A DNA stretch of 64,000 nt from Acholoe squamosa (lineage: Eukaryota > Annelida > Polychaeta > Phyllodocida > Polynoidae). The stretch lies in NCBI GenBank assembly GCA_949317995.1, contig OX439038.1, positions 60,470,813 to 60,534,812 of the forward strand, read 5' to 3'. Numbering within the stretch: the stretch's first letter is position 1; every line of letters begins with the position of its first letter. Under the pieces are notes generated by a model. It saw nothing but the letters and a program-made list of their open reading frames with translations, did no database searches and had not been told where the DNA came from. Positions 12,373-64,000 of this stretch are shown here, one piece after another. Position numbers and translations under genes: made by a program.

Positions 12373-14144
12373 ATGGGGTTACATAAGTTACCATACACCT
12401 GTGGTGTTATCCTTGCCATCATATTGTGCCAGCTTAATCATGCTACACAAGTTCAAGGTAAGTTAGGCAGTAGTGCCAATCCGTGTTGGTCTGGCCTATC
12501 TAATCCTAGCATTTGAAAGTATGCTTGATAGTAAAAGTGAATTTGGTTTTCCTTCTTTGGATAGAGCTTGATTTACAAATGGGCTTTGACTATAATTAAG
12601 AGTCTTAAAAATTGTTAAATGAAATATTGCCATAAAACATAGAAACCTACAGGAAGCTAAGCAACATTGTTAACATGTACAGGAATGAGAGAATGTTGAT
12701 TAAATCTTTCACAGGTGACGTCTGTGTGAAAAGCCACATGAATCCCCTGTAAAAATACAATGGCTGCTTTTATAGTTGACCCCTCACGATAATAAATCAG
12801 CAGCAAGGACAATTATTTTGGTCGGCTTACCCAGAGTCTATATTTTGCAAACTTAGAAACCTACTGAGTACATTTAATGTCTTTACTTTGCAGCACAACA
12901 TGTGGTTAACATCACAATTCCCTGTGACCCAGTGACTTCAGCAGTCAGCACAATGAGACAGACCTGTGGCAGCAATGGTGAACCCATGGTCACAATCATA
13001 TACTATACAGCCTATGTGCACACTGGCCAATGTTGTCTGTGTCCTACCCCTGATTCACTGAAACCGAAGGGCCAGCTTTTTAAGACATGTTTAAATCTAA
13101 ACAGCAACCAATTGACATGTAATCTCATATGTCCTACACAGGACAAAGTCAACTGTGCTCAACAACTCTCAATACGTTACTCATGCCCAGCTGATCTACC
13201 AACCCCATCAGAATTGCCAGAAGCACGTACGTATCATGATATAATTCCTTCAGATGGAATATTTTCTCTCATACATGCATGCTTCAAAGACTAAAGTATC
13301 TCATCATTTGAACATAAATTTTCAATTTGTGAAATAATATTGTAGGCTTAGACTCTATACCTTCCATATACTGCATATATAGGGACTAGATGATGCAGAT
13401 TATACTACACACTGAAATAAAACATACTTTGTATGATATGGGGATTCTGCTTATACTACAAGTGTCGAGGGGGGGGGGCATTTATAACGGCTAAACGTGT
13501 GTTTAAAGCAGATGATAATGACTCTTGGATAGTCTTGACCAGAATTTCTGTTAGACTAATCAAATAAGGTACACCATAAGCAAAGTTATATAAATTATTG
13601 AATATGAATGTCAGTTCTCAGTTTAAGATGGATTTTGTCGTAACTAAGATTTAAAAATCTGTGGCTGGACGGTTATCTTAACTTAACATCAATAAATTTG
13701 AAATGCTCTTTTTTTTTTGTACAGCCATCGATGAGGATGCGACTACCACTACAGTAACTACTAGTAATAGTATGGCGGGTAGAGCATCTGAAACGAATAA
13801 AGGTAAGTTTAAATCAAAGAATTGCTCCTGTTTTAGTCATGGCTAGACTTAAGGTTGTACGACTGAAGTTTTTTTTTCAAGAAAAGATATTTTCATATCT
13901 TTATCATAAATGAATTGATATAAATTCTTTAGTAAGAATGTCTATATTCGAATTCAAATCAATCTTGCTATAACCCAGATATCATCTTTTCTCTTGTTCT
14001 CTCTCTGAATTGTCCCACGTATATGTTGTATACCAGCAATATTCTTTTATATAATAAGGTCTGTGCTTTATGTCCATTATTCCAGGGGCGGCCATCGGTG
14101 CATCAATCATGAGCGTCATTATGGGAGTGCTTCTCACCGCATGA
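12373..14144 (+). CDS. Receptor array copy 1: ten-Cys protein truncated in its membrane segment
   Basis: Exons: 12373-12457 (signal peptide; hydrophobic CGVILAIILC), 12894-13226 (ten-Cys ectodomain, 111 codons), 13725-13802 (stalk with DATTTTVTTSNS), then 14086 to the TGA at 14142-14144. All introns are GT/AG and phases match the other copies; the assembled frame encodes 184 aa. The ectodomain has the family signature: PCD, CC-L-C, then C-x9-C-x3-C-x7-C-x9-C ending in IRYSC. The membrane exon reads GAAIGASIMSVIMGVLLTA and then stops, although the downstream donor (14176|GTACGT) is intact. No cytoplasmic exon was found before the Ty3/Gypsy element at 14789 or after it. It is either a recent nonsense pseudogene or a short form whose hydrophobic C-terminus acts as a GPI-anchor signal. 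AATAAA occurs at 14309. Confidence 0.68.
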
Positions 14145-14788
14145 GAACTAGTCATATGCTACTGTAGAAAATGCATGTACGTAATCAGACAGAATGGATG
14201 GTCGTGTTTTTTTTTTGTTTTTTTTTAATCCCGACATTTGGCTTGTTCCTGTTTATGTGCGGGGTGACCCAAAAACAATGCAAACGATTTCATTATGAAC
14301 TATAGTGGAATAAATGAATACACTGAATTATAGATATTTATGTATAAGCTCAGTGATAGGAACCAAATGGAAGCAGAATAACACAGTCATAACCATGTAT
14401 TAAATTGCAGTCTTAGCTGGAATGATGAGCGGAGTTGGTCCAAGTGTTCACCTGTGAACCCTACAACACAGACCTGAAACCATTGGGATTATTGGTGGAC
14501 AGGTGAACTCTTGATATTCTGGTCTCACACGACCTACAATTTGCACCATATAGGCTATCATCGATAGCAAATTCATCAGTTAATCAACTAATCTACTATA
14601 ATTATGCCTGACGAAGGTGAAGAAATTCACTGCTGAAATATTGCCTGCCCATGTGCTTGGTGTGGTGAGGAAACAAAGCCACCTCAGTTCTTTAAGTGTT
14701 CAACCACAAAATAAAACTGGAACAAATGTCCTATCTGGTGGTGTCCGGTGTTATTGATGAATCTTTTTTCCTATGTGAAACAGCATAG
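14145..14788. other. 3' flank of receptor copy 1
   Basis: This holds the remainder of the membrane exon homology (14145-14176) with its unused-looking donor, an AATAAA at 14309 and another at about 14710. No cytoplasmic-tail exon is recognisable. The TSD ATAG of the Ty3/Gypsy element is at 14785-14788. Confidence 0.5.
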
Positions 14789-15163
14789 TGTAGAGGTACA
14801 CTTTACTACCATAGGAGTTGGGTACCGTCTGACGTGGCGGGTGAGTCGAGTCGTCGGACGTTCCTCAGGTTCCGGATAGGTGGCAGCACCGATCCGGGTC
14901 TGTGGGGACATCTGACGACGAACACCTGGGTCCGTATATAAAGCCCAGGGCTCAGCCGCTACGTCAGAGGCCCTTCTGGCCTCCACACTATGTAAACCAC
15001 TGTCTTTTAATATTAGCTGCCTCTTTGATATCATTCGGCAGCCGTGAGTGTGCATTAAGTAATAAACCTAACCGTTGGCATACACTTGGAATACTGTCTT
15101 ACTCTTTCTTTCCGAATCGTAAGACCCGAACCCCCCAGGTCCGTAAGGCCACAAACCCTTACA
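14789..15163 (+). repeat. 5' LTR (375 bp)
   Basis: It begins TGTAGAGG and ends CCCTTACA. It contains a TATATAAAG promoter element (about 14935-14943) and AATAAA at 15061-15066, so U3, R and U5 can be placed roughly. The 3' LTR matches it. Confidence 0.95.
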
Positions 15164-15164
15164 C

Positions 15165-15182
15165 TGGTGCCGTGACCAGGAT
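15165..15182 (+). promoter_or_regulatory. Primer-binding site
   Basis: TGGTGCCGTGACCAGGAT lies one base after the LTR and starts with TGG, as expected for pairing with a tRNA 3' CCA end. The tRNA species was not determined. Confidence 0.75.
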
Positions 15183-15302
15183 ATTCTGGTGTATAGCCCG
15201 GACGTTATAACGTCCGAACGGCTAGTACATGGGTTAGACACCCTTAGGGAAGCTAACCCAGCAGGGCAATCACTTGCCCAAGAGAATGGAAATGGATCGC
15301 TA

Positions 15303-18086
15303 ATGCTCCAAGCCCATTCGGACCCACAAGATGCAGAATCAGCATCCTGGAGAGATCCCGGACCCCACTATAATGATAGTGAGGAGAATCTGCCAGACTC
15401 TGTACGACGCGAACAGTCCATACAGAGACATAGTAACTTAATAGGCCAGCATTCAATTGTTGACGAATTATGTGATTCGATGTTTGAAGTCGGTGGTAGT
15501 ACTAACCCAGAACATCCGGCACCAATGCGAAAAAGGGTAACATTCGGAGAACTACCTTATAGGTTACCCAGGCCCGAATTACCAATATTAGATTATAGCG
15601 CTATAGATGGCGACTTAACCTATGCGGTACCGGAAGGTGAAGAATTAAAACGACCGGATGTCCTGTTGTTGAATGAAACTTATGTAACTTTGAACGAGAA
15701 TTTAAATACCTTGGTCAAAGCTAAGGATGAAGTACTGCATGAAAAACTTCAAATGGAAGAGGACCTAACTGGCATGCGAAAGGAATTCGAAGCCAGAAGG
15801 AGCGAGTACATGAAAGAACTCGAGAGTGAAGAACTAAAACTTCAATCTATGAGAGATTCATTCAATAAAGAATATGACAATAGGCACATTCGTATCCAAA
15901 CATACATAGATACGAACGACCAACTAAACCTTGATAAGACAAAATTCGAATCCGAAATTCGCCATTATCAGGAGGAGTTGGATAAATTGAAACTTCAGTG
16001 CAGTAAACAAGCTGAAGATAATGAGACCATCCGGGTAGGCATCATAGCTTACAACAAACAACTGGAGGAGGATAGACAGAAACTCACGAATGAGCTTCAG
16101 GAATTGCAGGCCACTGCAATAACTCTAGATAAATATGTAGAAGCAGCCCAGTTAACTATAGGTAATATAGACCCAGCTGTGGTATCTACAATGTTGGGAA
16201 AGACATCTAAAGATGCAACCCCAATTAGATACAGCCCATTCGTTGATGATGGGGCTGACAAGAATGTGGTATCCGGAATCTATAAGAAACCGGATAACGC
16301 TGCAGTAAATGGAACCGCATCTAAACCAGTAGTTCCAATGCTGGATACGATAGGACCAGCACCACCCATACCAGATTTGAGTCACAAAATCAAAGCGACT
16401 CACGATGGTGCTACAGGGAATAATAATAATTCACCCGTGGCACAACCAAGAGCACCCGGACCAATGAGACATATGTTGACACCACCTTCATATTTCCCCC
16501 AACCCGGCCACAGTACACCAGCAGTACCAAGATTACCGAATCCACCCCCAGGTTCTGGTAATGGTCCTACTGATGGACGTTTTCCGAGACCAAATCCGCC
16601 ACAAAACAATATCAACGGCGGTACGCACCAACCGAGAACATCTTCCTATGGATATAGAAATAATTATAATCCATCGGGAAGTGGCAATTATCAGAATGGT
16701 AATAGCTATAACCAGGGATGGAATCAAAATGATTCTTACCCTAGATATGCTTCTTCTGGAAACACCGGTCACAATAGTGGATACCCTGGTGGTTCATCTG
16801 GAGGCTATAATAATAATGGTCCACCAGGAGGAAACCCTCCAGGCGGCCCAGGAGGATCCGGATTCGGAGGATCAGGATCAGGAGGAGATGGCAGGAAACC
16901 TAACAGGAGAACTTCTATGCCTGCAGGGATGCAAACCATCTTTGATAGAAGCCAATGTATACAAAACCTTGGCATTGACTGCTACCGAAAGGGAGCAGAC
17001 GGCATGGAAGTCATGAACTGGAGCATGCGAGAAGCAGATAGACTACGCGGATGTAATAATCCGGCACGTAGGCAGGCACGGATACCCCCTCCATATGATT
17101 CTAATGATCCATGGAAGGACAGGTATCAAGCTTTTGTTGACGAAGTCAATTGTAGTGGCTGGACAAAAGAAGAAGCTCTGCCATATTTGATCTGTTGGTT
17201 AAATAAAGGCGGAAAAGTAGCTCTCAACCAATGGAGAGCAGCTTACGGGATATATGGTACCTATGATCAATTGGTCGAATGTGCCGCATACCTTTTCGGA
17301 TCAATCGTTAGAGAAGATCCGTGGGTAAGCTTCAAGAAGAGGACACAAAAACCTAAAGAATCACACAAAGTCTTTGGTTTGGAGCTACAGGACTTGCTTT
17401 CGAAAGCACGTCCAAATTGGGCTCATGATGATGATTGTTATCTACAAGAATTGTTTATACAATTCTACAGTGGATTGCGTGATCCGGATCACAAGCAAGT
17501 GGTCTGGGACTCTTGGAAAGATGACACTTCCTTCAGTGATCTGTTCATAGCAATCGATGGACATGACATGAAGAAACGTTTGGTAGGTCTCGGACCTAAT
17601 CCAATAAGAGCAGCTCCATTCCAATATGGAGGTACACCTACTCCGGTATACGATACTTCCCAATTAGCTCCGGTTGAATCGAATGAAGTTGATGAGAAAG
17701 ATGAATATGTCTCCGATGAAAACGGAGATTATATTGGTTCAGTCCATGTAGCTGGAAAGTATTACCGACAAAAGCGGTATAGGAAAGTACATTCGAGAGG
17801 GAGAGGAGGATCTGTTGCTGGTAAAACAGCTTCCGGATCAACTCAACCTGGCAGTGTAGCCTCTACGGCGAACCCAACTGTAGCAGCCACTGTTGCTCCG
17901 ACTAACATGATGGAAACATTATTAGCCGGATTAACAGAAGCTCTAAAGAGACCGAGAGTTGACAAATCTCAGAGGAGATGTTTCAGATGCCAGAAACTGG
18001 GGCATTATGCTCCAGAATGTATGGCTGAAAAACCTGTCCCTCGTAGACAGGAGAGTGTCTCTGGAGTAAGTACAGAGGAAAACTAA
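15303..18086 (+). CDS. Gag polyprotein of the Ty3/Gypsy element
   Basis: The first ATG of the frame is at 15303 (927 aa); the frame is open from 15189 upstream without an ATG. Order: acidic N-terminus; charged coiled-coil region roughly residues 110-280; Pro/Gly/Asn-rich low-complexity region roughly 340-540, including APPIPDL; a globular capsid-like region roughly 550-800; a Ser/Thr/Ala linker; and near the C-terminus a CCHC zinc knuckle C-FR-C-QKLG-H-YAPE-C that binds nucleic acid. It is longer than most Ty3/Gypsy Gags because of the coiled-coil and low-complexity parts. It ends EEN-TAA, overlapping the open pol frame by about 40 nt in the -1 frame. Confidence 0.9.
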   Translation: MLQAHSDPQDAESASWRDPGPHYNDSEENLPDSVRREQSIQRHSNLIGQHSIVDELCDSMFEVGGSTNPEHPAPMRKRVTFGELPYRLPRPELPILDYSAIDGDLTYAVPEGEELKRPDVLLLNETYVTLNENLNTLVKAKDEVLHEKLQMEEDLTGMRKEFEARRSEYMKELESEELKLQSMRDSFNKEYDNRHIRIQTYIDTNDQLNLDKTKFESEIRHYQEELDKLKLQCSKQAEDNETIRVGIIAYNKQLEEDRQKLTNELQELQATAITLDKYVEAAQLTIGNIDPAVVSTMLGKTSKDATPIRYSPFVDDGADKNVVSGIYKKPDNAAVNGTASKPVVPMLDTIGPAPPIPDLSHKIKATHDGATGNNNNSPVAQPRAPGPMRHMLTPPSYFPQPGHSTPAVPRLPNPPPGSGNGPTDGRFPRPNPPQNNINGGTHQPRTSSYGYRNNYNPSGSGNYQNGNSYNQGWNQNDSYPRYASSGNTGHNSGYPGGSSGGYNNNGPPGGNPPGGPGGSGFGGSGSGGDGRKPNRRTSMPAGMQTIFDRSQCIQNLGIDCYRKGADGMEVMNWSMREADRLRGCNNPARRQARIPPPYDSNDPWKDRYQAFVDEVNCSGWTKEEALPYLICWLNKGGKVALNQWRAAYGIYGTYDQLVECAAYLFGSIVREDPWVSFKKRTQKPKESHKVFGLELQDLLSKARPNWAHDDDCYLQELFIQFYSGLRDPDHKQVVWDSWKDDTSFSDLFIAIDGHDMKKRLVGLGPNPIRAAPFQYGGTPTPVYDTSQLAPVESNEVDEKDEYVSDENGDYIGSVHVAGKYYRQKRYRKVHSRGRGGSVAGKTASGSTQPGSVASTANPTVAATVAPTNMMETLLAGLTEALKRPRVDKSQRRCFRCQKLGHYAPECMAEKPVPRRQESVSGVSTEEN

Positions 18087-21000
18087 GGAGGGGTCTCCCG
18101 AGGGGCAAAGAAGGGGATCCCAGTGACAAATCTTGCCATGATATCACCATCCGTGATGATAGTTCACATGAAGTAACAAGATCGCCTAACACCGAGGTGG
18201 TTGTAGACACCCGGAAGGTTAGGGAAGCTGATATAACAGGTGCTATGGGAGCACAGGGGAAACCCAATATCAGTAACGAGGCAGGCGGCTATTCGTTAGC
18301 CAAGGTCTGTGGTGCCCACCTGCCCCCGGGTCATCCTTGTCTGGAATTCTTAAAAGGATGTGGATTGACTCCTGGTGTGAAAAATGACGTTCCGATTGTC
18401 ACGGACATGCCCTCTGTTCTAAACGGAAGGCGGTGGTATGTTTGCCTTACTGTTAACGGAAGGTCTGCCGAATTCCTTGTGGATACGGGAGCTAGCCACT
18501 CTTGTATCTCCAAGGGGTTCTACGACCTTATACCGGATGAACATGATACTCTCAAATCGGGAGGAAGTGCTCAGACGGCCGACGGCAGTACCTTGCAAAC
18601 GTATGGTAGAACTTGTGTGAGACTACAGTTAGATGGTATACATGACTATGTCATGAGCGCCACCGTTGCGGATATAGCAGATGAGGGGATACTCGGGTTG
18701 GATTTCGCATCCCTGTATGGTGCTGTATTGGAACCCCAAACAGGAGTGTTGAGTGTGAGATACCCGTACCCCGTGAAGGTTAGATGTGCACTGAGACAAG
18801 TGAGCAGTATGGCTAGTGTGGCACACACTGTGCGAATCCCTCCGGGAGTAGCCTGTGATGTGCTTGTAAGAAGTGATCCTGCAATGCGTAACAAACCTGC
18901 AGTGATAGAACCGGATGTAGTTACTTTGTCAGGTATTGGATTAAATTCTGTAGACACTATAGTAGCGAATGCATCCTGGTCGGTAGTACCTGTCTCCAAT
19001 ACTGGAAACACTACTATCTACTTGAAAAAGGGACAAGTTTTTGGAAACGTGACCCTTTCGGAAACTGTAACGGATAGTAAGCTAAGCTTACAGAAGGTAA
19101 CAGGAGATGATGAAATTTCGGAAGACTTACTTAAGTTGTATGAAGAAACTTCATTAGAAGATCCGGAACACCGGAAAGAGTTCTATGATATGCTCTGTCA
19201 GTATCATACTGCCTTTGCCAAACCTGGTGAAAAACTAGGTACGACAAATAAGGTATTACATAAAATAGATACTGGAGATGCCGAACCCTTTAAGATACCG
19301 TATAGACGGTTACCCTTAGCAAAAAAGAGAGTAGCTGAGGATGAAATAAATAAGATGTTGGAACAGGATGTAATAGTCCCTTCCAATAGTCCATGGAGTA
19401 GTCCTGTGTGTATGGTAACAAAAAAGGACGGTACTATCCGTTTCTGCATAGACTACAGGAAGTTGAATGGAATAACGAAAAAGAATTCGTATCCATTACC
19501 GAGAATAGATGAAACCATTGACTCCTTAGGAGGAAACAGTTGGTTTTGTACCCTAGACTTGCAATCAGGCTATTGGCAAGTGGGAATGAACCCTTCAGAT
19601 ATGGAGAAAACTGCATTTTCAAGTCATATTGGATTATTCCAATATAATGTAATGCCGTTTGGATTGTGCAATGCACCTGCAACATTTGAAGCAATGATGG
19701 AAACAATTCTAAGTGATTTATTGTGGAAAAGATGTCTTGTATATCTAGACGATGTCATTGTCTTCGGAAAAACATTCGAAGAATGTTCTAATAACCTAAA
19801 AATGGTACTAGAACGTATTATTTCAAATGGTCTCAAATTGAAACCTAAGAAATGCCACATGTTTAGAAAGTCCATAAATTATTTGGGCCGCATCATCAGT
19901 GATGAAGGAATAAAGGCTGATCCGGAAAAAATCGAATCAGTCACGAATTGGAATAGACCTAAAACACCCAAGGAAGTGAGGTCCTTTTTAGGATTCTGTT
20001 CCTATTACAGGGAATTTATTCCGAATTATTCTAGAGTCAGTTACCCATTACAAGCAATAGCTAACTGGACTCCAGGAAGTACCAAGGAAAAATTTCCTTG
20101 GACACATGAACAGGAAAACGCTTTTCGAAAGCTAAAAGACCTGTTCACGAGTACTCCCGTATTGCAATATCCGAATGAGACGGATCATTTCATACTGGAT
20201 ACTGATGCTAGTAATGATAGCATTGGTGCAGCTCTCTCGCAAGTCCAGAATGGGAGAGAAGTACCAATTGCCTTTGCCAGCAACACACTGAGCAAGACTC
20301 AGCGCAATTACTGCACAACCAAAAGAGAGTTGTTGGCAGTAGTCGTATATACCAAGAAGTTTAAACATTTTCTATGGGGAACGAACTTTACTTTGCGTAC
20401 GGATCATTCCTCTTTAAGGTGGCTACTGAACTTCCGAGATGCTGAAGGCATGTTAGGCCGATGGCTAGCCCATTTATCCGAATATGGGCTTGAACATCAA
20501 CAGATTCAGCATAGACCCGGAGTTAAGCATTTAAATGCTGATGCTTTGTCTCGAATACCAATCCGGAAATGTGATAATCCGGATTGTACTGATTGTGGAG
20601 CTCATAAGGCAGTGTTAGCAGGGATTCGAAGACCATTCGTACCCCTAGTTGCCAGTATACTGGATTGGTCTATGGATCACATACGACATTTCCAGGAAGC
20701 TGACTCGATAACTGCACAGCTACTGCAATTAGTACCAAAGGGTATACGTCCAGTTAGACCAGAGGTCTCTCTGGAAAATCGAGAAATGAGAAGGTTTCTT
20801 GCTCAATGGACCGAGCTTGAAGTCCGGAAAGGCGTGTTATACCGTTGGAAGCCATGTAATAATGGTGATAGAATCATGCAAGTGGTGATACCACATGCCA
20901 TGAGACATGACATTATGTACTTTTGTCATGGACATCGGACCAGTGGTCATTTCGGAAGGAAACGCTCGCTAGCACGACTTTCCAAGAAATACTATTGGCC

Positions 21001-22282
21001 TGGCATGACACGGGACTTGCAAAGATGGGTAACCACCTGTCCGGATTGTTGTAAAAACAAACCCGGACCCGGGATGGGCAAACTTCCCCTATCCCAAGAA
21101 CTTTTCGGAGTTAGATTCGCAAGAATCGGGGTAGATATTATTAGTGGATTTAATACAACCGCTAATGATAATACCTGTATGATGGTAGTGTGTGATTATT
21201 ATACGAAATACACTAAAGTATTTCCACTACCGGACCACAAAGCAATTACTTGTGCCGAAGCTTTTGTAAAAGGTTGGGTACTAAGCTTCGGTGTACCATT
21301 AATGTTACACAGTGACCAAGGCAGAGAGTTCGAATCAAATCTCTGGCAGGGTATGTGCGAATACTTGGCTATTTGCAAGACTAGAACCAATCCGTATAGA
21401 CCACAAAGCGACGGATTGGTGGAAAGGTTCAATAGAACCCTCATCCAAGTCCTAAAGTCACTCGTTAATGAACATATGGATGACTGGGATGAGCAATGTC
21501 ATTTTGTGACACATGCTTATAATAGTACGGTACATTCAAGTACAAATTGTTCTCCGAACCTTTTAGTATTCGGAGAGGATTTGATAATGCCTGCTGACCT
21601 AGTTTTTGGAGTCGTAGGAATGGACCCTGAACTACCTTGCCATGTAGTTTTTGTGGAATGTTTAAGAGACAGATTTAGAAAAGCATATGAGTCTGTCCGA
21701 ATTGATTTGGAGAAAAGTGCCAAATGGCAGAAAGTAGGATACGATACCGATCTAAAGCATCGGAAATTCCAATCCGGAGACAGAGTCCTCAGATTACATG
21801 AACCACTTAGACACATAAAATTAGCGTCTAATTGGGACGGTCCCTTTACTATAACACAAATTATCAGTGATTGTACCGTAATTATTAAATCTGACCTTGG
21901 TCGACTCTATAAGTCAAATGTGGCTAGATTAAGGAGATGGTCTGGGAGGGAGACCTCCACAGAAATGTATGGTGAAGGTTCCGAAAGGATCCTGAATCAG
22001 AATCGCATAATAGACCAGGTAAAGAACACTACAGTGAAGCGTGGTCAAGGTAGACCCAAAAAGTGTTCCGAATCAGTGACACCCACGCCAACACCGATTA
22101 AGCGTGGGGGAGTTAAAAAAGTCTCGGCAGGTGAAGACAGAAAGAAGAGGAAAGGTGTTTCTAAGGCTAAGAAGCACCTAGAGAAAGCTCTTCAGACTGT
22201 CAGGTCCGATAAAGAACTATCCGAGAAGGGGAGATACGTTCGCCGCAGCCCCCGAATTGCCCAGAGGACTGCAGTGACCTAA
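18047..22282 (+). CDS. Pol polyprotein: protease, reverse transcriptase, RNase H, integrase
   Basis: The frame is open from 18047 (first ATG 18245) to 22282. Domains in order: aspartic protease FLVDTGAS (about 18472); RT with FCIDYRKLN and the catalytic YLDD (19742-19753); RNase H with LDTDASND, KRELLAVV, RTDHSSLRW and NADALSR; integrase with an H2C2 zinc module (HGHRTSGHF...CPDC), catalytic D in GVDIISG, D in HSDQGREF and E in GLVERFN with the exact D35E spacing; then a C-terminal domain. The tail is very basic, includes GQGRPKK (AT-hook-like) and ends RRSPRIAQR. All catalytic residues are present and no stop interrupts it. It carries out maturation, DNA synthesis and integration. It is probably translated as Gag-Pol by -1 frameshifting. 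Confidence 0.95.
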   Translation, partial: TGECLWSKYRGKLRRGLPRGKEGDPSDKSCHDITIRDDSSHEVTRSPNTEVVVDTRKVREADITGAMGAQGKPNISNEAGGYSLAKVCGAHLPPGHPCLEFLKGCGLTPGVKNDVPIVTDMPSVLNGRRWYVCLTVNGRSAEFLVDTGASHSCISKGFYDLIPDEHDTLKSGGSAQTADGSTLQTYGRTCVRLQLDGIHDYVMSATVADIADEGILGLDFASLYGAVLEPQTGVLSVRYPYPVKVRCALRQVSSMASVAHTVRIPPGVACDVLVRSDPAMRNKPAVIEPDVVTLSGIGLNSVDTIVANASWSVVPVSNTGNTTIYLKKGQVFGNVTLSETVTDSKLSLQKVTGDDEISEDLLKLYEETSLEDPEHRKEFYDMLCQYHTAFAKPGEKLGTTNKVLHKIDTGDAEPFKIPYRRLPLAKKRVAEDEINKMLEQDVIVPSNSPWSSPVCMVTKKDGTIRFCIDYRKLNGITKKNSYPLPRIDETIDSLGGNSWFCTLDLQSGYWQVGMNPSDMEKTAFSSHIGLFQYNVMPFGLCNAPATFEAMMETILSDLLWKRCLVYLDDVIVFGKTFEECSNNLKMVLERIISNGLKLKPKKCHMFRKSINYLGRIISDEGIKADPEKIESVTNWNRPKTPKEVRSFLGFCSYYREFIPNYSRVSYPLQAIANWTPGSTKEKFPWTHEQENAFRKLKDLFTSTPVLQYPNETDHFILDTDASNDSIGAALSQVQNGREVPIAFASNTLSKTQRNYCTTKRELLAVVVYTKKFKHFLWGTNFTLRTDHSSLRWLLNFRDAEGMLGRWLAHLSEYGLEHQQIQHRPGVKHLNADALSRIPIRKCDNPDCTDCGAHKAVLAGIRRPFVPLVASILDWSMDHIRHFQEADSITAQLLQLVPKGIRPVRPEVSLENREMRRFLAQWTELEVRKGVLYRWKPCNNGDRIMQVVIPHAMRHDIMYFCHGHRTSGHFGRKRSLARLSKKYYWPGMTRDLQRWVTTCPDCCKNKPGPGMGKLPLSQELFGVRFARIGVDIISGFNTTANDNTCMMVVCDYYTKYTKVFPLPDHKAITCAEAFVKGWVLSFGVPLMLHSDQGREFESNLWQGMCEYLAICKTRTNPYRPQSDGLVERFNRTLIQVLKSLVNEHMDDWDEQCHFVTHAYNSTVHSSTNCSPNLLVFGEDLIMPADLVFGVVGMDPELPCHVVFVECLRDRFRKAYESVRIDLEKSAKWQKVGYDTDLKHRKFQSGDRVLRLHEPLRHIKLASNWDGPFTITQIISDCTVIIKSDLGRLYKSNVARLRRWSGRETSTEMYGEGSERILNQNRIIDQVKNTTVKRGQGRPKKCSESVTPTPTPIKRGGVKKVSAGEDRKKRKGVSKAKKHLEKALQTVRSDKELSEKGRYVRRSPRIAQRTAVT
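18077..18083 (+). promoter_or_regulatory. Candidate -1 frameshift site between gag and pol
   Basis: GGAAAAC lies immediately before the gag stop (18084-18086). The pol frame is -1 relative to gag and is open from 18047, so a -1 shift anywhere in 18047-18083 joins the two. The heptamer is not a perfect X-XXY-YYZ site, so the exact slip point is uncertain; the frame relation is seen directly. Confidence 0.45.
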
Positions 22283-27626: not shown

Positions 27627-27630
27627 ATAG

Positions 27631-48039: not shown

Positions 48040-48052
48040 AGAAGGAGGTTTA

Positions 48053-53280: not shown

Positions 53281-53346
53281 GGATCAACACGGTAAAAGGT
53301 ACCCCGCGAGGGGTTGCGTGGGTGTACCTTTTACCGTGTTGATCCA
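53281..53346. repeat. Hairpin with ~22-bp arms
   Basis: GGATCAACACGGTAAAAGGTAC and its reverse complement are separated by a ~20-nt GC-rich loop. It lies in intron 4 of copy 6. It is probably a small palindromic element. Confidence 0.7.
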
Positions 53347-53628
53347 CATATACCTTTATACCATCAGTTAACATACTTTGCCACTGCTTTAATTAACCTT
53401 AATCAAAAATCTCAAATCATTACTTTTCACCTTATGTTCTACATAATAAAATGAAATATGTTACATGGACTTTTAGGGAGCCTCTAAAAAGACTGCAAGT
53501 AAGACCTGCATGGCTGGAGAACTTGTACACTAGACCTACACACAGGTCTGCACCAACCAGAACAATGCCAGACCAACCACTTCCAGACCCACCACCACCA
53601 CCTGACAGACCACCAGATGACACAGAGT

Positions 53629-54925: not shown

Positions 54926-55901
54926 TAGTAGTAGCGTAGGTTGGGAAAAGTCACCTTGATGGTAAAGTGCATCTATAATCATGATTATGCTAGAGCATTG
55001 TTTAAATAGAACAGAGATCTGGATAGGAACTACAGGCTTACTTACCCTTACTGGGGACAATGAGTGCTAAGATCATTGAACAGACCTCAAATGACAGATA
55101 GTTTTTGAAAGTAAACCTACAGTATTAGTATTCTGAAGTGATCAGTGAGAGTCTGGCTGGGTTAAGAGAAGATCAATCCCAGAAAATCAGTCTAGTTCTG
55201 TGAAATTATTGGTCACAATAACACAAGAACAAGGTTGTAAATGTGTGTTTGGCTGATGTAAGGGTTGTTGTTGTTGTTGTTGTTGTTGTTGCAATTCATT
55301 TATTAATCCCAGCTCAAGTTAGAGATAGGGCAGGGAGGTTATTTTTCCCCAGATCCTGGGGAATAATTCACTTGGATTCAACTAGATGGGAGTTTGAGAT
55401 CATACTTTATATTCAAAATATCTGTACAGGGGAGACAGGTAAAGCATGGGGATGATAGGGTGCCCCTTGTGAGTGAGGGCGAAAACAGGGGATGATTGAC
55501 TGGTAACTTCTTGTACCATGTCTCCAATATACAGGCAGGTTTCCAATATTCTAGAATGGCTAGCTTGATCTTAATAGCTACCTGTTACTTTGTCCCTATC
55601 TGTCAGATGTCATTGATAGTGGTCACACATCCAATAGACCCCCCATTAAGTACTTTCTCCATTTGCAGTTATGTATCCATCACAGCCATTCATCATGCTA
55701 TGAATTTTTTTTCTCTCCCATGTTAATCAATCCTTCCTACAAAATGAATTATGTAGTTAGTGATCAAGTCTGTGATTGCTGTTTAAATGATGCAAAAGAT
55801 GACTTGGCACTGTGGTGAGCAGCTCAATGTTTAAACCCTGGGTTACTTTAAAAGATGGCTATCAATTGTCAAGGGCAGTAAGATGATTTCCAGTCAAAGG
55901 A

Positions 55902-55978
<77 letters not shown>

Positions 55979-56711
55979 CAGATTAAAGTGAAGGTGACAG
56001 AAGCACAACAGTAGCCTCAGGTGCTTTCTAGATATGATAGGAGCAATTTGTACAATATGGATGACACTTCCCTCTTCTATAAGCCAAACCAATCAACCAC
56101 CATGTCCACTGTCAGTGATGTGGAATGGTAGAAGATACTTAAGGTCTGTGTGCCAGTGGACTTCAGAAGTATTATCAGGGTCAACTAGTAATTCACTACA
56201 CCAGGTGTTTGGGATAGAGAACTATAACAGATCAACATGCCTTCTCAGAAGTGCCCAGCCGCATAATCCCCAGCTGTTGGTATCACACTGCTATGAGCCA
56301 GAGTGTAATGTCCAGAGATATGTAAGGATGGATAACACTGGGCCTGATGCTCTGAAGAAGTAACAGATGAGAGAATATCCTGAGAATTGTACAATTGTAT
56401 TCTAAGCCTTCTTTTTCATTTTTTCAATATGTGAACGAAACCACCTTTCACTTACTTTCAGACAAGTAGGCTGCCCAAGCTTTTGGGATAATCAATAAGG
56501 CGTGCAGTACATTATAAGGCTGAGAGTAAATCTTCTGTATTCTAAATATGTGTTATCCGTACCAGCACTGGTAAATTTTTATAGTATGGCAGTGGTTACA
56601 GGAATTTGATATGGGGGGAGGGGAGAGTTGTTAGGAATTACAATCCTGTGTAATTGTGGATGATCTGAGATACATATGCATGGATATATATATATATTTA
56701 TATATATATAT
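54926..56711. other. Inner sequence of the long-TIR element
   Basis: It holds (GTT)n at 55264-55291, (GA)n at 55908-55975 and (TA)n at about 56686-56711. A 109-codon frame at 56034-56363 has no recognised motif. No transposase signature was seen. Confidence 0.5.
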
Positions 56712-56890
56712 AAGTTATCTCGCTACCAGGGAATAATTATTCCGGTAATACGTAGATAAGATAATAATAGATAACAGGGTATACCGGTAATTAATAGGAA
56801 ATAATTAATATACATGTAATAAATGACCTATGACAGAATACATGAGTTTGGTGGGTTACTGAACTTGGGGCTATCAGCACCATACATGCC
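56712..56890. repeat. Split direct repeat A, outer copy
   Basis: It begins AAGTTATCTCGCTACCAGGG and ends CACCATACATGCC. It matches 57214-57392 with about four differences. Confidence 0.9.
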
Positions 56891-56998
56891 TTTATTAAAA
56901 CAACTATAATAATTAGTTGACAAAGCATAGTCAGTAAAAATGCACAATATAATAACAATAATATAGAATAACAGTATACTAAACAGTACTAACAATGG

Positions 56999-57392
56999 TA
57001 AAATTTAAAATACCAGGGAACACCCAGCGTGGTGTTACCTGTCCAGGTGAATCGAGCCAATTGACGGTTACTTTGAACCCACCTCTTATATACCAATGGG
57101 ATTGTTGACTATGACGTCATACTATGACATCATTGGTATCCTTGCGCGCTGCAAGTAGTCCCTAACCGTCCGCGGCTAATTATATAAATATACACGAGTG
57201 TATATAGTTCCATAAGTTATCTCGCTACCAGGGAATAATTATACCGGTAATACGTAGATAAGATAATAATAGATAACAGGGTATACCGGTAATAAATAGG
57301 AAATAATTAATATACATGTAATAAATGACCTATGACAGAACACATGAGTTTGGTGGGTTACTGACCTTGGGGCTATCAGCACCATACATGCC
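56999..57392. repeat. Inner B-A repeat pair of the Ngaro element
   Basis: B (56999-57213) is directly joined to A (57214-57392). This junction is the template that lets the recombinase circularise and integrate the element, by analogy with known Ngaro/DIRS elements. Confidence 0.88.
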
Positions 57393-57438
57393 AAAAACAC
57401 ACAAAAACACGCCAAACACATGTGAAAACACATATCAA

Positions 57439-58392
57439 TCAGCATTGCAAATGAGATTGACATATTTTATCCAACTCCAATAGCTCATCTTTGTAATTAT
57501 GTAGATAATTAAACACTGAGTTGGATTTCCAATTGACCCTCTTTTTGATAGACTCTATACTGAGCCCAGCATCTTTTAATAACATAGCACCACCATGCCT
57601 TAAAGAATGGGTAGAAACAAAGCCTTCGATACCAGAATGAATTGATAAAGATTTTAACTTAGAGTTGACATACTGATACTGTAATGGACTACCATTTGAC
57701 TTAAACAAGTGATCTCTACTACTCCTACCCCTGCACAACTTTCTCAAACCTCGGTAAGGACATAGTGGAGAATTAATATTCTTTGATAAATAGATATTAA
57801 AGGAGTTTTTACCAAGTTGATCAGTTTTAGATGTCCTGATACATATAGACAAATAATGCTGATGAAATTTAACATCACCAACTTTTAAGGAATGTGGAGA
57901 CTTAACTACATGTCCCACTCGTAGTACACCCCAATAACATAATAAAATTGCCATCCAAAACTTCCAGTCTGCCCTGTTGGTTAGATCCAAATTCGATCTT
58001 AACCTCAACATGTCTTTTGGAGTTAAAGAATAAATTTCTTTAGTAGAACAGGTGGAAAGCCTGTCAATGCCCTCTAGGGTCTTTTTAAACATGAAATTAC
58101 TACTATAATCGGGGTAGCCCTTAAGTTTTTGAAAATACCAAACCGCAGACAAGTAATTTCTTACAGATGATGGCTTCATAAAATCCGATAAATAAACAGC
58201 ATATATGGAACCTTGAGAGGGAGAACAAGGAAAAGTTTGTAAACAAAATTTTTTACAAAATTTCTTATACCTTCTAAGCTGTTGGTTCCTTGTCCTCCTC
58301 GTATTTTCTGACACACCCTGGGCTAAAAGTAACCTTTTTCTGTTTAGTAACCTCTCCCACTCTGGAATCAAAGCAACACATATTATTATCAT
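57439..58392 (-). CDS. Tyrosine recombinase of the Ngaro element
   Basis: 317 aa from ATG at 58392. An N-terminal SAM-like region (VSENTRRTRNQQLRRYKKFC) is followed by a catalytic domain with R in YWGVLRVGHVVKS, HxxR in STHSLRHGGA, W in KRVNWKS and Y in FNYLHNY, the R-H-R-(W)-Y set of the family. It replaces an integrase in this class of retrotransposons. It overlaps the 3' end of the RT-RNase H frame by about 120 nt in a different frame. No internal stop. Confidence 0.9.
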   Translation of the reverse strand: MIIICVALIPEWERLLNRKRLLLAQGVSENTRRTRNQQLRRYKKFCKKFCLQTFPCSPSQGSIYAVYLSDFMKPSSVRNYLSAVWYFQKLKGYPDYSSNFMFKKTLEGIDRLSTCSTKEIYSLTPKDMLRLRSNLDLTNRADWKFWMAILLCYWGVLRVGHVVKSPHSLKVGDVKFHQHYLSICIRTSKTDQLGKNSFNIYLSKNINSPLCPYRGLRKLCRGRSSRDHLFKSNGSPLQYQYVNSKLKSLSIHSGIEGFVSTHSLRHGGAMLLKDAGLSIESIKKRVNWKSNSVFNYLHNYKDELLELDKICQSHLQC

Positions 58393-60328
58393 GGAGAGAG
58401 GCTATACATTTGCTCGGAATACCCTTATAAGCAAGTCTAGATAGTTGGTCGGCCAGGATATTGTCCTCCGACTTAATATAGGTCGCGTATACCTCCACAT
58501 TGTTAATGAAACAAAGCCAGAAAATCTCCCTTAACCACTCCATACATAACTTGTTCCTGGATCTACCCATATTTATCATCGCTAGCACTTGCATGTTATC
58601 AGTAATACAGTGTATTCTTTTATTTTTACAACTTGAAATCCAACATTTCAGACCAACCATGACCGGATATAACTCGTACACATTTATATTTCTATGATGA
58701 TTTTTAAATCTATCCAATATTGGGGGAGGAGCAAAATGGCCTGTACCTAGGTTGAACCTATCATATGAGGTCCAGTCACCATATAAATAATCATTCCCCA
58801 TCCATGCTCCAAAGCCTTTGATAGATGAATCGGAGTACATAGGCGTATCTACCAAGTCGTTTAGAATTAACTTCTTGCAGTTAAACACTCTACAAAAATC
58901 TAGCCACCACTGCATATCCTGGTGAGTACAGGCCGAAGCCCTAACATAACCCCCTGGTCTAGCTCGCGCGCAGAGATAAAAAATTCTTCTGCTAAAGGTC
59001 CTACCACCCTTAACCACCTGCGAGCAGAAAGACATAAGGCCACCTATCCTTTCAAGATTTTTTCTAGAAATAAATTTCTTGTTAACATTCTCCATCAAAA
59101 TAGTTCTCATTTTAGTCACCTTATCCTCTGGTAAGGATAATTCCAGATTAACAGAGTCTATATTAATACCAAGAAATTTACAAGTTTGTGAAGGTTCCGT
59201 TACCTTTTCCCTCGATACCACGAACCCCATATGCTGCATGCATTCAATGAGGACGTTCCTTTGACGTAAACATTCACCATAAGTATCAGCAATTATGATA
59301 AAATCATCTAGATAATTAACCAATCTTTTTACACCATAGCTTTTGGCCACCTCCACAATAAAATCAGATATTCTATTGAATATGAAAGGGGCACATTTAA
59401 GTCCAAAAGTTAACCTGTTGCTTACATAGAAACCTTCACCTTGACCAAAATCCCACCTAAAGCCCTGCATACTAGTGTGGGGGCCATAAACATTAATGGT
59501 TCTATAGGCAGATTTCAAATCTACCACGCTCATAAAATTATTTCTATCTAACTGAGCTGTGACCGTACCAATATTATTGTAAGAGAAGGTAGAACTAGTC
59601 TCATCCATATAGTTATTAATGGAAATTTTTTCCGGCATACTGCAATCCGTTATAGGCCTTAGCTTGCCATTTGACTTCTCCACACCGCCCAGAGAGTGAA
59701 TGCATTGTGGTTTGTTTTCAACCTTAGAAACGAGACCAGCCTCTAACTCCTCCCGCAATATGCCACAAAATTCCTCGTAAAAACTACCTTCCAGAATGGA
59801 CTTATAATTTTTGCAATCATAAGACGTATTGCACGCAGGGTCAACTATCTTAAACCCTTCAATAAAACCCTGCCACAAAAATAATGCCTCTTTACTATCT
59901 ATATTTATCACACCTTTTTGGGTTAAGTAAGGGGCTACTCTGCAAGGTAAAATTTGGGACCTTTTCCCATGAACATAGTGAACACAATTGCACACACCAT
60001 TTATACAGCTATCATACACTTCGATGCTAGGTAAATTATCAATAGCAACAGTAAATAGTGGTTTAACCTTGCCCTGTACTGGGCTACTATATGATACATC
60101 CAAACTAACCGAGTTTGCATTAATATTAATATCATTTTCAACATTAAACTGTAGATTTGCTACAGGCTCCACATAAGGACCACAGGGCCCTGAGCTCTCA
60201 CAGACATCACTCGAGGAGACAAATTCTACCACTCCAGCATTATCTACACCAACACCCTGAGCTGGAGCAACGGGTGGAGGCAAACCAGGATCTACCAAAC
60301 CTACTATACACGATTTTGGCATCGACAC
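58274..60328 (-). CDS. Reverse transcriptase-RNase H of the Ngaro element
   Basis: 684 codons on the minus strand; the frame is open back to a TAG at 60367-60365 that is the gag stop, so it may be reached by read-through. RT motifs: GGVEKSNGKLRPITDCS, VVDLKSAYRTI, LTFGLKCAPFIFN and catalytic NYLDDFIII. RNase H: YSDSSIKGFGAWMG (D), INVYELYPVMVGLK (E), ITDNMQVLAMINMG (D), EDNILADQLSRL (D). No protease is seen, as usual for DIRS-order elements. The N-terminal ~100 residues have no recognised domain. Confidence 0.9.
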   Translation of the reverse strand: MSMPKSCIVGLVDPGLPPPVAPAQGVGVDNAGVVEFVSSSDVCESSGPCGPYVEPVANLQFNVENDININANSVSLDVSYSSPVQGKVKPLFTVAIDNLPSIEVYDSCINGVCNCVHYVHGKRSQILPCRVAPYLTQKGVINIDSKEALFLWQGFIEGFKIVDPACNTSYDCKNYKSILEGSFYEEFCGILREELEAGLVSKVENKPQCIHSLGGVEKSNGKLRPITDCSMPEKISINNYMDETSSTFSYNNIGTVTAQLDRNNFMSVVDLKSAYRTINVYGPHTSMQGFRWDFGQGEGFYVSNRLTFGLKCAPFIFNRISDFIVEVAKSYGVKRLVNYLDDFIIIADTYGECLRQRNVLIECMQHMGFVVSREKVTEPSQTCKFLGINIDSVNLELSLPEDKVTKMRTILMENVNKKFISRKNLERIGGLMSFCSQVVKGGRTFSRRIFYLCARARPGGYVRASACTHQDMQWWLDFCRVFNCKKLILNDLVDTPMYSDSSIKGFGAWMGNDYLYGDWTSYDRFNLGTGHFAPPPILDRFKNHHRNINVYELYPVMVGLKCWISSCKNKRIHCITDNMQVLAMINMGRSRNKLCMEWLREIFWLCFINNVEVYATYIKSEDNILADQLSRLAYKGIPSKCIASLHDNNMCCFDSRVGEVTKQKKVTFSPGCVRKYEEDKEPTA

Positions 60329-60364
60329 ACTATCACATATAGGACCCTGGCCACCTGTACAATC

Positions 60365-61144
60365 CTAATCAGATTTGTTCACTTGACAGTCCACCTTACT
60401 GTGGCCTGATTTGGTACATGAACTGCATACATGTCTATACTTGCAGGGATCCCTAGTACATCCCTCAGCCCTGTTAAAGGCATAGCATGAATTTGTAGAG
60501 ACTTTAATTTTTCCAGAATTTCTTGACTTAGTTGAATAAGCCTTCTGGGCTTGCACTGTCCCATCATAAGACAAATGCCTTAGGATATCAGAATTTTCGA
60601 TCATTGCAAAGGCATCCAAACCATCGATATTAGCCCTGTCCCTAACGGACTTGTCATATGCAACTAAGGCTTTTACAGTGAAAATCTTCGTGTCAGATTT
60701 TTCAACCAACATCTGAAGGTGCCTAAGCATTCCTACTATATCATCTCCGTCTTTGTAACACTCTATGATACACTTGACACTGACCAATACAAGCTTCTCA
60801 ATGCTATCGACCTTATCATGCTTTTTAATGAATTGTTCGTGATCAAACTCACCAATTTATTGTTTGGCATGATAGCGAGGCATTGACGAATCCATTGACG
60901 ACCCTCCTGACGAGCTAGGGCTCCTGTGACGAGCGGTATAAGATGATTTCGATCTCGTTTGATGACCTATACGTCCGGCTCTAGTCCACTCGCCGCCATC
61001 TTGGTTGCTATGGACGCTGTCGTTGTCAACGTCCCGCTGTAGACCACCCCCCCGTCGCCTTGGTTTCGCGTCTCTCGAATCTTGTTTGTATACAGATGCA
61101 CGTGCCTTCGCCGCCCCGCTGTCCGCTCCGCTCGGAGGATTCAT
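60365..61144 (-). CDS. Gag-like protein of the Ngaro element (one in-frame TAA)
   Basis: Minus-strand frame from 61144 to the TAG at 60367-60365, interrupted by one TAA at 60859-60857. The N-terminal part is basic and Ser/Arg-rich. The C-terminal part has CX8CX4CX3H (CYAFNRAEG-C-TRDP-C-KYR-H) followed by a CX2CX4HX4C knuckle (CSSCTKSGHSKVDC). The frame is the same as the downstream RT, with single stop codons as the only separators. Whether the TAA is a mutation of this copy or part of the design cannot be told from one copy. Confidence 0.72.
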
Positions 61145-61449
61145 CTCTTCTTTACTGACCCCTTGGTTAGCATGACATCACGTAGCATTTTCTTTATATC
61201 CAAGAGATCCTCCTCCAACAGGTCCAGCCGCGTCTGGTCAACAATCTCACTCTCTATAGCCTGTGGCATATTAGGCTGTAAGGGCTCCAGACCCCCATCC
61301 AGAGAAGTAAGACTGCTCGAAAGTCCTAGATTGGCCGATTCTCTGCCCGTTTTCGCCAATTTAGCCGATTTCTTCGACGAACCTTTCTTCTTAGTACCTG
61401 CAGTAGTTCTTTTCCCCATGATTGGGCCGATATCTAAGCACCAATCCAA
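61141..61449 (-). CDS. Small 5' ORF of the Ngaro element
   Basis: 102 codons; a second ATG at 61419 gives MGKRTTAGTKKKGSSKKSAK, very basic, followed by an acidic leucine-rich helix (DLLEEDLLDIKKML). Its stop overlaps the next ATG as ATGA (61144-61141). It may be the N-terminal part of Gag, separated by a frameshift, or a distinct small protein read by reinitiation. Confidence 0.55.
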   Translation of the reverse strand: MDWCLDIGPIMGKRTTAGTKKKGSSKKSAKLAKTGRESANLGLSSSLTSLDGGLEPLQPNMPQAIESEIVDQTRLDLLEEDLLDIKKMLRDVMLTKGSVKKR

Positions 61450-61461
61450 GAAAAACCGCTT

Positions 61462-61672
61462 TAAAATTTAAAATACCAGGGAACACCCAGCGTGGTGTTA
61501 CCTGTCCAGGTGAATCGAGCCAATTGACGGTTACTTTGAACCCACCTCTTATATACCAATGGGATTGGTGACTATGACGTCATACTATGACATCATTGGT
61601 ATCCTTGCGCGCTGCAAGTAGTCCCTAACCGTCCGCGGCTAATTATATAAATATACACGAGTGTATATAGTT

Positions 61673-61676
<4 letters not shown>
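61462..61676. repeat. Split direct repeat B, outer copy (5' end on the coding strand)
   Basis: 215 bp matching 56999-57213 with one difference seen (GATTGGTGAC versus GATTGTTGAC). It includes GTATATAAT/TATATAAATATA motifs and probably the element's promoter. Confidence 0.88.
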
Positions 61677-61719
<43 letters not shown>

Positions 61720-61889
61720 AAATAACACAGGGTGTGGATGTAGCAAATATTTTATCATAATATTATAAATCATTATCTCATTATTTGGTCTCTGACAATT
61801 AGATGATTTTAAAAGGTAGACTAACATCAAGCACATGACCTTGCAACCTGTTATTTGCTGAGAGAAGGGGAGCTATACATACAAGTTCT
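61677..61889. other. (TA)n run and remainder of the long-TIR element's inner part
   Basis: (TA)n at 61675-61718 borders the Ngaro element. The rest is AT-rich without an exon. Confidence 0.5.
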
Positions 61890-62996
61890 CGAGGCGAGAC
61901 CATACACTTAACTGTGACTATCTGTATAGATTTGGACATAAGGTTCTATGTAAAGCTGCAGTTGCTAGGCAACCACATGATATAGCAATCATTTACTACC
62001 TATGTTCATACTGTGTGATGTGCATAAGGGAGCTATATGAAATCTGAAATCAGTGAACTATATCATTGAAGGGAGACTATGCACAAGACACAGTATCTGC
62101 CTAAAGGTATGAATCTAGGCATTGTTGCTATGCAAAACTGTTATTGCTAGGCCACCAGACAACCTAGCAACTTTTTGATTTATAGGGGGTAGGACCCACA
62201 AGATACTTTCTAGACTGCACATATATGTAATTCAAAGTGACATTTGAATCTGTTGTCGGCCATTTTGATTTTCAGCTATATACAGCCTCGCCATTAAACT
62301 TAATGAAGTAGAAACAAGTATATTCTTAATTGGCACCCTTTTTTACATAAGAGTCAGGAGAATTGATAAAGATTTAGCATAGAAAAACATCCATTTAGAG
62401 AAAGGGAGATTATTGAAATGGAACACATCGTATTGGCTCAAGGTAGTGTCTTCACTTCCAAGGCAATAACGTGGGTCATAGTTAACAAGGATTGCTGCAA
62501 AATGTCTCATATTACTCAGAAAGGTTTGGCCTACATGAAGCATATTAGATATTGTGGTTAGATGGAGATAAGAACAAGTTTTATACATGTATCTGGAGTG
62601 CATTTAAAATTTTTAGTTAAAAAAGGAACTTTGTGATTTCAATCTTCTGTCTTCCGGACTGTCTGGTACACTCAAATCTGAGCTTAAAAACATGTATTAG
62701 GGCTTAATGAAAAGCTTATCATGTCCTCTTTCCAACAACTAGCTTTAGGATCCAGACAATGTAAGATAGTCTTAGAGATAGGGATTGAGCATACCCCTTG
62801 AATAACATGGTAGCAAAATTGACTCAAAAGTGGTCTGACCCCGCACATGGATAATGAGCAAAAACCGGTAGTGCATCCCAAGATAATCAATGTTAACATC
62901 TTGAATCTTGTTCAGGTCCCTTAGGATCGAGAAAATACTTGGTGCGTTGGGATGTGGGGGGGGGGTGCATGGTGGGTCCTATCAGCCCCCGGCCTA
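61890..62996. repeat. Right arm of the long inverted repeat
   Basis: This is a diverged reverse complement of 53629-54925, ending CCCCCGGCCTA. It includes an X-box-like GTTGCTAGGCAAC at 61961-61973. Confidence 0.78.
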
Positions 62997-63628
62997 AGTG
63001 GATGAGTATAGGAGAGGTCCAGACTTTCCAAGTACATGGGCATGATAAACCTTCCCTACAGGGTCACACTGACCTGGGATGGCAATTGGTCAAGAGATAT
63101 CTTTTGGGGAGGGGGGCAGTGGTCTCGGTTGAGGGGGCCTGCTATACTCCTGTATATAGGCTTGTATAGGGGGCCTCCTCATTATTTGGGAGGCCAAGCC
63201 CCCCCCACCTGCCCCTTTTTCCTACGCCCCTGTCAGTGTCTATTTCCACCTATAATAAATGCAGCACAAAGCCAGCTTCAATTTGAGTAGGAATAATAGA
63301 CACTCATTATCAAGTCGAATAATTATGCAGCTGGGAAGCTTTCAAATGCATTGTAATGTCAAAACTAAATGTATACATGACTTAGAAAGGTGAGATCGGA
63401 AGCATACATGGTATTTCATATTTTATAAGTTATACTACATGTTCTATTTTTTTAATTCAAATAATGCTTTTCATATAGAAAAATCCATTTTCCCAACATG
63501 TGTCCCCTAAAGTTAAGTAGGTTCTTCCCTTTATCCAATGATGTCAACATTCCTGTTGACCCACAAAGAGCTGAAAGAAAAAGCGGCCTTGCACTGGGTG
63601 TGTACGCATTCCAAAGGAGACCTGTCAG

Positions 63629-63656
63629 GTGTAGGTCACACACCCCTGTGCACATA
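63629..63656 (+). promoter_or_regulatory. Shared upstream block of receptor copy 7
   Basis: GTGTAGGTCACACACCCCTG then TGCACATAGG, 178 bp upstream of the ATG at 63807, followed by GTATATAAC. It is identical in layout to copy 5. Confidence 0.55.
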
Positions 63657-63806
63657 GGCATGTACATTGTATATAACCATGTAGGTAATATCACTGTAGT
63701 GTAGACTGTGTCTGTATATGGATAAATGCTGTTAAACAAGATTTATTTCGTACTGTTGGTGTGGATGTCTAATGATAATATATATTACTAGTATGGAATA
63801 TTGAAC

Positions 63807-64000
63807 ATGGATTGGTACCCTGTGCTGGTCATCATCTACTGTTTGACTATCCATGCCATTGGTGTTATGGGTAAGTGAAAGAGCTATCTCACATGTATAG
63901 TTTTGGGATGCAGTCCAACATATTACAGCTCAGTAATGTGCCTGTTGTCATAGTCTTCCGCTAATACGATAATATTTGTTATTGTACATGACTAGTGTCA
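63807..64000 (+). CDS. Receptor array copy 7: signal-peptide exon, gene continues past the window
   Basis: The exon 63807-63870 encodes MDWYPVLVIIYCLTIHAIGVM and ends in phase 1 at GGTAAGT, exactly like copy 5 (two residue changes). Only the start of intron 1 is in the window. Confidence 0.75.

Follow-up and report, generated by a model that had tools for sequence, protein, structure and literature searches.

The window analysed here, 64,000 bases of Acholoe squamosa contig OX439038.1, carries a tandem array of seven plus-strand units (c1 to c7) of a gene family that codes for predicted receptors with a ten-cysteine ectodomain. That the gene family and its receptor architecture are real we hold with high confidence. 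New here are an identity of 27% in the ectodomain against 68% in membrane segment plus tail between two complete copies (c3 and c5), a homogenised tail tract in c5 and c6, and a short block found upstream of several copies. The array is tentatively read as a birth-and-death tandem family of single-pass type I receptors coupled to SH2 and SH3 domains, whose likeliest job would be immune-type or self/non-self recognition; we place this reading somewhat short of probable.

Gene models of the complete copies

Three units, c2, c3 and c5, were each assembled into five exons; their borders are AG/GT throughout, and the introns have phases 1,1,1,2. In order, the exons code for a signal peptide, the ten-cysteine ectodomain (phase 1-1), a stalk (1-1), a membrane segment (1-2) and the tail, which occupies a single exon. 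Copy c2 (28661-31472; exons 28661-28736, 29200-29523, 30003-30068, 30273-30360 and 30779-31472) is open over 415 amino acids (aa), c3 (35600-38920; exons 35600-35651, 35961-36320, 37876-37974, 38158-38245 and 38479-38920) over 346 aa, and c5 (43720-46940; exons 43720-43783, 44382-44744, 45075-45203, 45814-45898 and 46490-46940) over 363 aa. Since the ectodomain exon is of phase 1-1, it is exchangeable in frame. All three models place a signal, the ectodomain, one membrane segment and a cytoplasmic tail in one frame. Hydropathy analysis gave both signal-like and membrane peaks in c2 and c5 and a membrane peak in c3, the signal of which falls just under the threshold used.

The c5 model is uncertain at one junction. 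At the position homologous to the AG of the c6 stalk acceptor, c5 reads GT (by eye), so that c5 is open only with an alternative, uncertain stalk acceptor at 45075; to judge from the model, skipping its phase 1-1 stalk exon would also preserve the frame. The first-pass annotation had given three copies as open throughout, with 415, 346 and 365 aa. The three open copies and the first two lengths were confirmed, and c5 had to be corrected to 363 aa on the condition of the alternative acceptor. Five exons with identical phases had moreover been ascribed to all seven copies, which holds for c2, c3 and c5 but not for the others: c1 is tail-less, c4 is without an ectodomain, c6 is broken and c7 has the signal exon only. 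The seven units therefore comprise three open copies, one tail-less copy (c1), two broken copies (c4 and c6) and one that is cut by the window end (c7).

An ectodomain family with ten cysteines

Each of the four readable ectodomains (c1, c2, c3 and c5) has exactly ten cysteines, in line with the first-pass annotation. Eight of these are in register in all four copies; an invariant proline precedes the first cysteine and an invariant leucine the last. Profiles were built from three ectodomains at a time and run against the six-frame open reading frames (ORFs) of the window, and the held-out copy was recovered in every case, with E values of 7.3e-17 (c1), 2.2e-10 (c2), 1.1e-10 (c3) and 2.9e-15 (c5).

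It had also been said that the ectodomain matches no named family, and sequence searches of Pfam, NCBIfam and PDB indeed gave no recognition. In Pfam, the filters of which discard most matches above E 0.1, the four ectodomain exon frames gave one chance match (E 0.12) and the four tail frames none; at this sequence level no immunoglobulin (Ig) match, as in ectodomains of the CEACAM or Alr type, was found for any of the four ectodomain exons. The spliced proteins likewise gave no whole-protein match to a well-described family in Pfam, the four matches returned (Cytochrom_B558a, Protocadherin, DUF6338 and DUF4516, E 0.043-0.16) being judged to be chance. NCBIfam returned one chance match (E 0.16), and the PDB sequence searches, which among single ectodomains covered c1 and c2, returned either chance matches (best E 0.26 and 0.28) or nothing. 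In a set of 5.8 billion proteins nothing was found for the four-member ectodomain alignment (E<=1) or for c3 (E<=10). This negative is weak, because a long interspersed nuclear element (LINE) in the same window has its best relative there at only 44% identity, so that near relatives of the species seem to be absent, and because intron-split genes are probably poorly represented and the candidates were limited to similar length. Relatives of the c3 tail gave no pattern match in viral contigs, and 26 pattern matches in prokaryote genome contigs, none of which was confirmed. No account of this receptor family was found among the titles and abstract openings listed by searches of an open-access library. 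The description as an undescribed system stands in so far as the searches matched no named family, although the negatives behind it are weak.

One lead came from the C-terminal end of the ectodomain, L-x-[IV]-x-[YF]-x-C, which resembles that of the SUEL/rhamnose-binding lectin family (PF02140). Like the SUEL domains of latrophilin and CSL3, the ectodomain is short, cysteine-rich and extracellular, and the last strand, with a cysteine at its end, is similar in both. A profile-profile comparison, as the first-pass annotation had proposed, was run against SUEL with hhalign and aligned that end alone. The score was 16.3 over 16 columns (one-to-one E 0.039, probability 1.3%); 200 cysteine-preserving shuffles had a mean of 11.6 and a maximum of 20.4, seven of them scoring as high or higher, and the reversed profile scored 8.1. 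The result is marginal and not clearly above the controls, and no family was assigned. The YGR and DPC motifs that form the SUEL core were not seen in the ectodomains (by eye). A place in SUEL would call for a profile match, the YGR and DPC motifs and an eight-cysteine pattern; the ectodomains do not qualify, and an origin from this lectin family is not supported.

Candidate signalling motifs in the tails

The three readable tails (c2, c3 and c5) all contain candidate SH2- and SH3-binding motifs. YxN is a Grb2-type SH2 site and PxxPx[R/K] a class II SH3 site. YENVP is found in all three tails and YDVAA in those of c3 and c5. The c2 tail is long and has five tyrosines, three of them in YxN (YENV, YENM, YENV), plus YDDV. 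SH3-type motifs stand at the C-terminus of each, namely PVLPPR (c2), PPIPSK (c3) and PPIPSR (c5). The tails also have in common a box, DDTE[W/L]MS[I/A]GE[M/V], of which c2 contains a related second copy, DNTEWMSICDV.

The immunoreceptor tyrosine-based activation motif (ITAM) consists of paired YxxL/I, and the inhibitory one (ITIM) of [S/I/V/L]xYxx[I/V/L]. No strict ITAM or ITIM was found among the 11 tyrosine contexts of the three tails; YENV and YDDV have valine at +3 and lack the ITIM residue at -2. Together with the gene models and the broken copies, these motifs bear out what had been predicted from the letters, namely a duplicating, partly pseudogenised set of single-pass receptors whose tails bear candidate ligands for SH2 and SH3 domains.

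Unequal divergence and local homogenisation

The ectodomains of c3 and c5 are 27% identical over 115 codons, with a nonsynonymous divergence (dN) of 0.90 and a synonymous divergence (dS) of 1.33. Membrane segment plus tail of the same pair are 68% identical over 167 codons (dN 0.23, dS 0.57, dN/dS 0.41), and the corresponding dN/dS of c2/c3 is 0.40. In approximate Fisher tests, which use approximate site fractions, the proportion of synonymous differences (pS) exceeded that of nonsynonymous differences (pN) in the tail of c3/c5 (p=1.5e-5) and of c2/c3 (p=2.6e-6). By these substitution patterns the tail is under constraint. The c1/c2 ectodomains also showed constraint (pS>pN, p=2e-4). Between ectodomain and tail of c3/c5, pN differed with p=1e-17.

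At the DNA level (E<=0.01), c3 and c5 match in the tail exon, from 6 intron bases before it to 48 bases past the stop, and in a 28-bp upstream block, and in nothing else; their introns, ectodomain exons and membrane exons have diverged too far to be matched at this threshold. As DNA, c1 matched neither c2 nor c3. A tract at the start of the tail exon, 46471-46639 in c5 and 53458-53629 in c6 (plus strand), is 96% identical over 172 bp and includes 19 bp of the preceding intron. Identity is lower in the neighbouring regions, at 77% for the one with the membrane exon (p=3e-8) and 82% for the tail sequence that follows the tract (p=2e-4). Gene conversion would be the simplest account of this tract, with unequal crossing-over as the alternative. 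By this measure tail homogenisation is apparent in c5/c6, and the c3/c5 pair itself is not covered by that result. Across the tandem array, copies have been gained and lost and in part homogenised.

An upstream block in part of the array

A block of 27 bases precedes the ATG in four units, all on the plus strand: in c3 (TTTAGGTCACATGCCCCTGTGCACATA, 35458-35484) by 142 bp, in c4 (39772-39798) by 140 bp, and in c5 (TGTAGGTCACACACCCCTGTGCACATA, 43547-43573) and c7 (TGTAGGTCACACACCCCTGTGCACATA, 63630-63656) by 173 bp each. The c3 and c4 blocks have three and five mismatches to c5, and that of c7 is identical to it. With up to 6 substitutions allowed on both strands, these are the only occurrences in the window, and the mean in 100 local shuffles was 0; the four matches are not independent, since c5 supplied the search pattern and c7 is almost a duplicate of c5. 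A diverged form, one base shorter, is present at the same place in c6 (by eye). The block may be a putative promoter element.

Interpretation and alternatives

How such receptors might work can be sketched from their parts. The disulfide-rich ectodomain would bind a partner or foreign ligand, and clustering of the receptors would lead a Src-type kinase to phosphorylate the tail tyrosines. Phosphorylated YENV (YxN) could then recruit a Grb2-type SH2 adaptor, the C-terminal PxxPx[R/K] motifs could bind SH3 domains, and the DDTE[W/L]MS[I/A]GE[M/V] box might serve as a further docking site. In this reading the tails are held under constraint, with local homogenisation at least once, and the ectodomains diverge; copies are born and lost through duplication and transposon insertion. 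The family is ordinary in its build and unusual in its scaffold. Known animal recognition systems are built on few scaffolds (Ig, lectin, leucine-rich repeat, SRCR). If the reading is true, a recognition-type cluster on an unassigned ten-cysteine scaffold would add one.

An outer part that differs strongly from copy to copy beside a conserved inner signalling part is often met in immune or self-recognition genes. Three features strengthen the comparison with clusters of recognition receptors: ectodomain and tail have diverged unequally, a tail tract has been homogenised, and several copies share the upstream block. In way of working, the nearest systems appear to be the CEACAM family of mammals and the allorecognition complex of Hydractinia; both are Ig-based, and membership in neither is claimed. 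The CEACAM genes encode type I receptors from separate exons for leader, ectodomain, membrane segment and tail, and some of the receptors have tyrosine signalling motifs; in one paralogue gene conversion reaches the leader and intron but spares the exons of the Ig domains, and the tail of one paralogue is very short (PMC7042247). The present array is similar in exon build, tyrosine tails, exon-selective gene conversion, if that is what the c5/c6 tract reflects, and a tail-less copy (c1). CEACAM differs in having Ig-like ectodomains and tails of ITIM/ITAM type, in place of a ten-cysteine ectodomain and tails with no strict ITAM or ITIM. For Hydractinia, Alr1 and Alr2 are described as Ig-superfamily genes, with polymorphism and control of allorecognition reported (PMC11067881). 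The likeness is that one interval of an invertebrate genome contains a family of membrane proteins that cross the membrane once and have variable ectodomains. The difference is that the complex described there is Ig-based, with polymorphism and allorecognition control, whereas the array here is known from the sequence of one haplotype.

Several results weigh against the preferred reading. In the c3/c5 ectodomain pS and pN did not differ significantly (p=0.16), and pS, like pN, was greater for the ectodomain than for the tail (p=0.003), so that a younger tail, and not faster change of the ectodomain, may account for some of the contrast. Several ectodomain dS values (1.3-2.6) are near saturation. 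Positive selection was seen in none of the eight pairs computed, the only dN/dS near 1 being that of the c5 tail against the pseudogene c6 (1.03, 49 codons). Motifs as short as YxN and PxxP are common, and the upstream block was not found in c1 and c2 (up to 6 substitutions). The signal-peptide hydropathy of c1 (1.58) and c3 (1.56) lies just below the threshold of 1.6. Finally, at most three working genes can be seen in the window, and c5, as modelled, requires a replacement splice acceptor.

Receptors built in this way could also serve development, adhesion or gamete recognition in place of immunity or self-recognition. Growth-factor, adhesion and gamete receptors too have YxN and PxxP motifs in their tails, and the lack of positive selection in the eight pairs and of any immune marker domain in Pfam speaks for such a role. 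We regard it as somewhat unlikely in view of the strongly unequal divergence of ectodomain and tail, the copy loss and the homogenised tail tract; such features are less usual for developmental receptors, although gamete-recognition genes can look alike. That the cluster consists mostly of relics of a once active family, with c2 and c3 at most still working, would agree with the stop in c1, the missing ectodomain of c4, the double breakage of c6, the lost stalk acceptor of c5 and the dN/dS of 1.03 in the c5/c6 tail. The low dN/dS of the c3/c5 and c2/c3 tails, their excess of pS over pN and the restriction of the c3/c5 DNA match to tail exon and upstream block make this distinctly improbable.

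The ectodomain might also be a far-diverged known cysteine-rich fold such as the SUEL/rhamnose-binding lectin domain, in which case a family of known kind would have been missed by sequence. The SUEL-like ending and an hhalign score above the shuffle mean and the reversed profile favour this; the 1.3% probability over 16 columns, the seven controls as high, the unseen YGR and DPC motifs and the lack of any Pfam or PDB sequence match above chance do not, and we consider it unlikely. As to chance open frames or parts of transposons, mobile elements do surround and interrupt the array, but the leave-one-out recovery (E 2e-10 to 7e-17), the constant phases and the absence of Pfam transposon domains from the exon frames leave this explanation hardly credible. 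The reading as a recognition-type receptor family is preferred, and an immune or allorecognition function is suggested by analogy with the systems named above. A more specific form of it remains doubtful in our view. In that form, an undescribed family of disulfide-rich ectodomains would be the variable half of an animal locus for self/non-self or pathogen recognition; the phase 1-1 ectodomain exons would diverge, gene conversion would keep the tail exons alike, and the copies would retain an upstream control block.

Incomplete copies and mobile elements

Copy c1 (12373-14176) has the first four exons in the same phases as the complete copies: signal 12373-12457, ten-cysteine ectodomain 12894-13226, Ser/Thr-rich stalk 13725-13802 and membrane 14086-14176, the last with an in-frame TGA. 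A search of the window with the tail profile found no tail exon nearby. Its hydropathy peak lies at the extreme C-terminus (residues 166-184 of 184), and a product that ends in its hydrophobic segment has the shape of a glycosylphosphatidylinositol (GPI)-anchor signal; c1 may be a tail-less or GPI-type form, or a decaying gene. Directly upstream, an open frame at 12093-12305 (by eye) contains EGEDTVYESPNAVLNAY and has no tail-profile match; possibly it represents the tail of another gene that was truncated by the LINE. Upstream of c3, short stretches at 33883-34379 are 74-79% identical to the region 34801-35277, with a TGTAGGTCATAC stretch near 34581, a possible relic of a further unit.

The remnant c4 (39912-43078; borders by eye) retains the signal exon (39912-39966), the membrane exon (~41946-42028) and a damaged tail between ~42319 and 43078. 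No significant match to an ectodomain exon was found there in six frames on either strand. A tandem-like repeat (41744-41917; offsets 84 and 105), perhaps with a 21-base unit, directly precedes its membrane exon. In the pseudogene c6 (48219-63103; borders by eye) pieces of all five exons are recognisable in order: signal from 48219, ectodomain 50213-51175, stalk 51737-51832, membrane 52970-53054 and tail 53477-53628 plus 62997-63103. The ectodomain is frameshifted and split by a ~615-bp repeat (50397-51011, strand not assigned; 86% identical to 6639-7251), and a 9.4-kb element (53629-62996, strand not assigned) interrupts the tail. This element has inverted ends of more than 1 kb (84% over 1094 bp), with outermost bases TAGGCC...GGCCTA and AGT flanking each side (by eye); nested inside it on the minus strand is a DIRS-type retroelement with reverse transcriptase and tyrosine recombinase (57439-60364). 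A c6 intron contains a tRNA-Ser-like sequence (52124-52195, minus strand) within a duplicated repeat (52094-52334 and 52568-52813), probably a tRNA-derived short interspersed nuclear element. Of c7, the window includes the signal exon (63803-63866). A 454-bp stretch around this exon is 95% identical to c5 and extends to base 64000; since this c5-like duplicate reaches the window end, the array probably continues.

The LINE just upstream of the array has an ORF of 952 aa (8837-11695) with reverse transcriptase and a sub-threshold endonuclease match. Between c1 and c2 lies a long terminal repeat (LTR) retrotransposon of ~12.8 kb (14788-27626), with a gag-like ORF (sub-threshold zinc-knuckle match), a pol ORF and a third open frame of 991 codons (22765-25740); its 376-bp ends are identical, and it is a recent insertion. 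With these LINE, LTR and DIRS-type elements, a G+C content of 40.5% and a CpG observed/expected ratio of 0.52, the window has the appearance of an animal genome.

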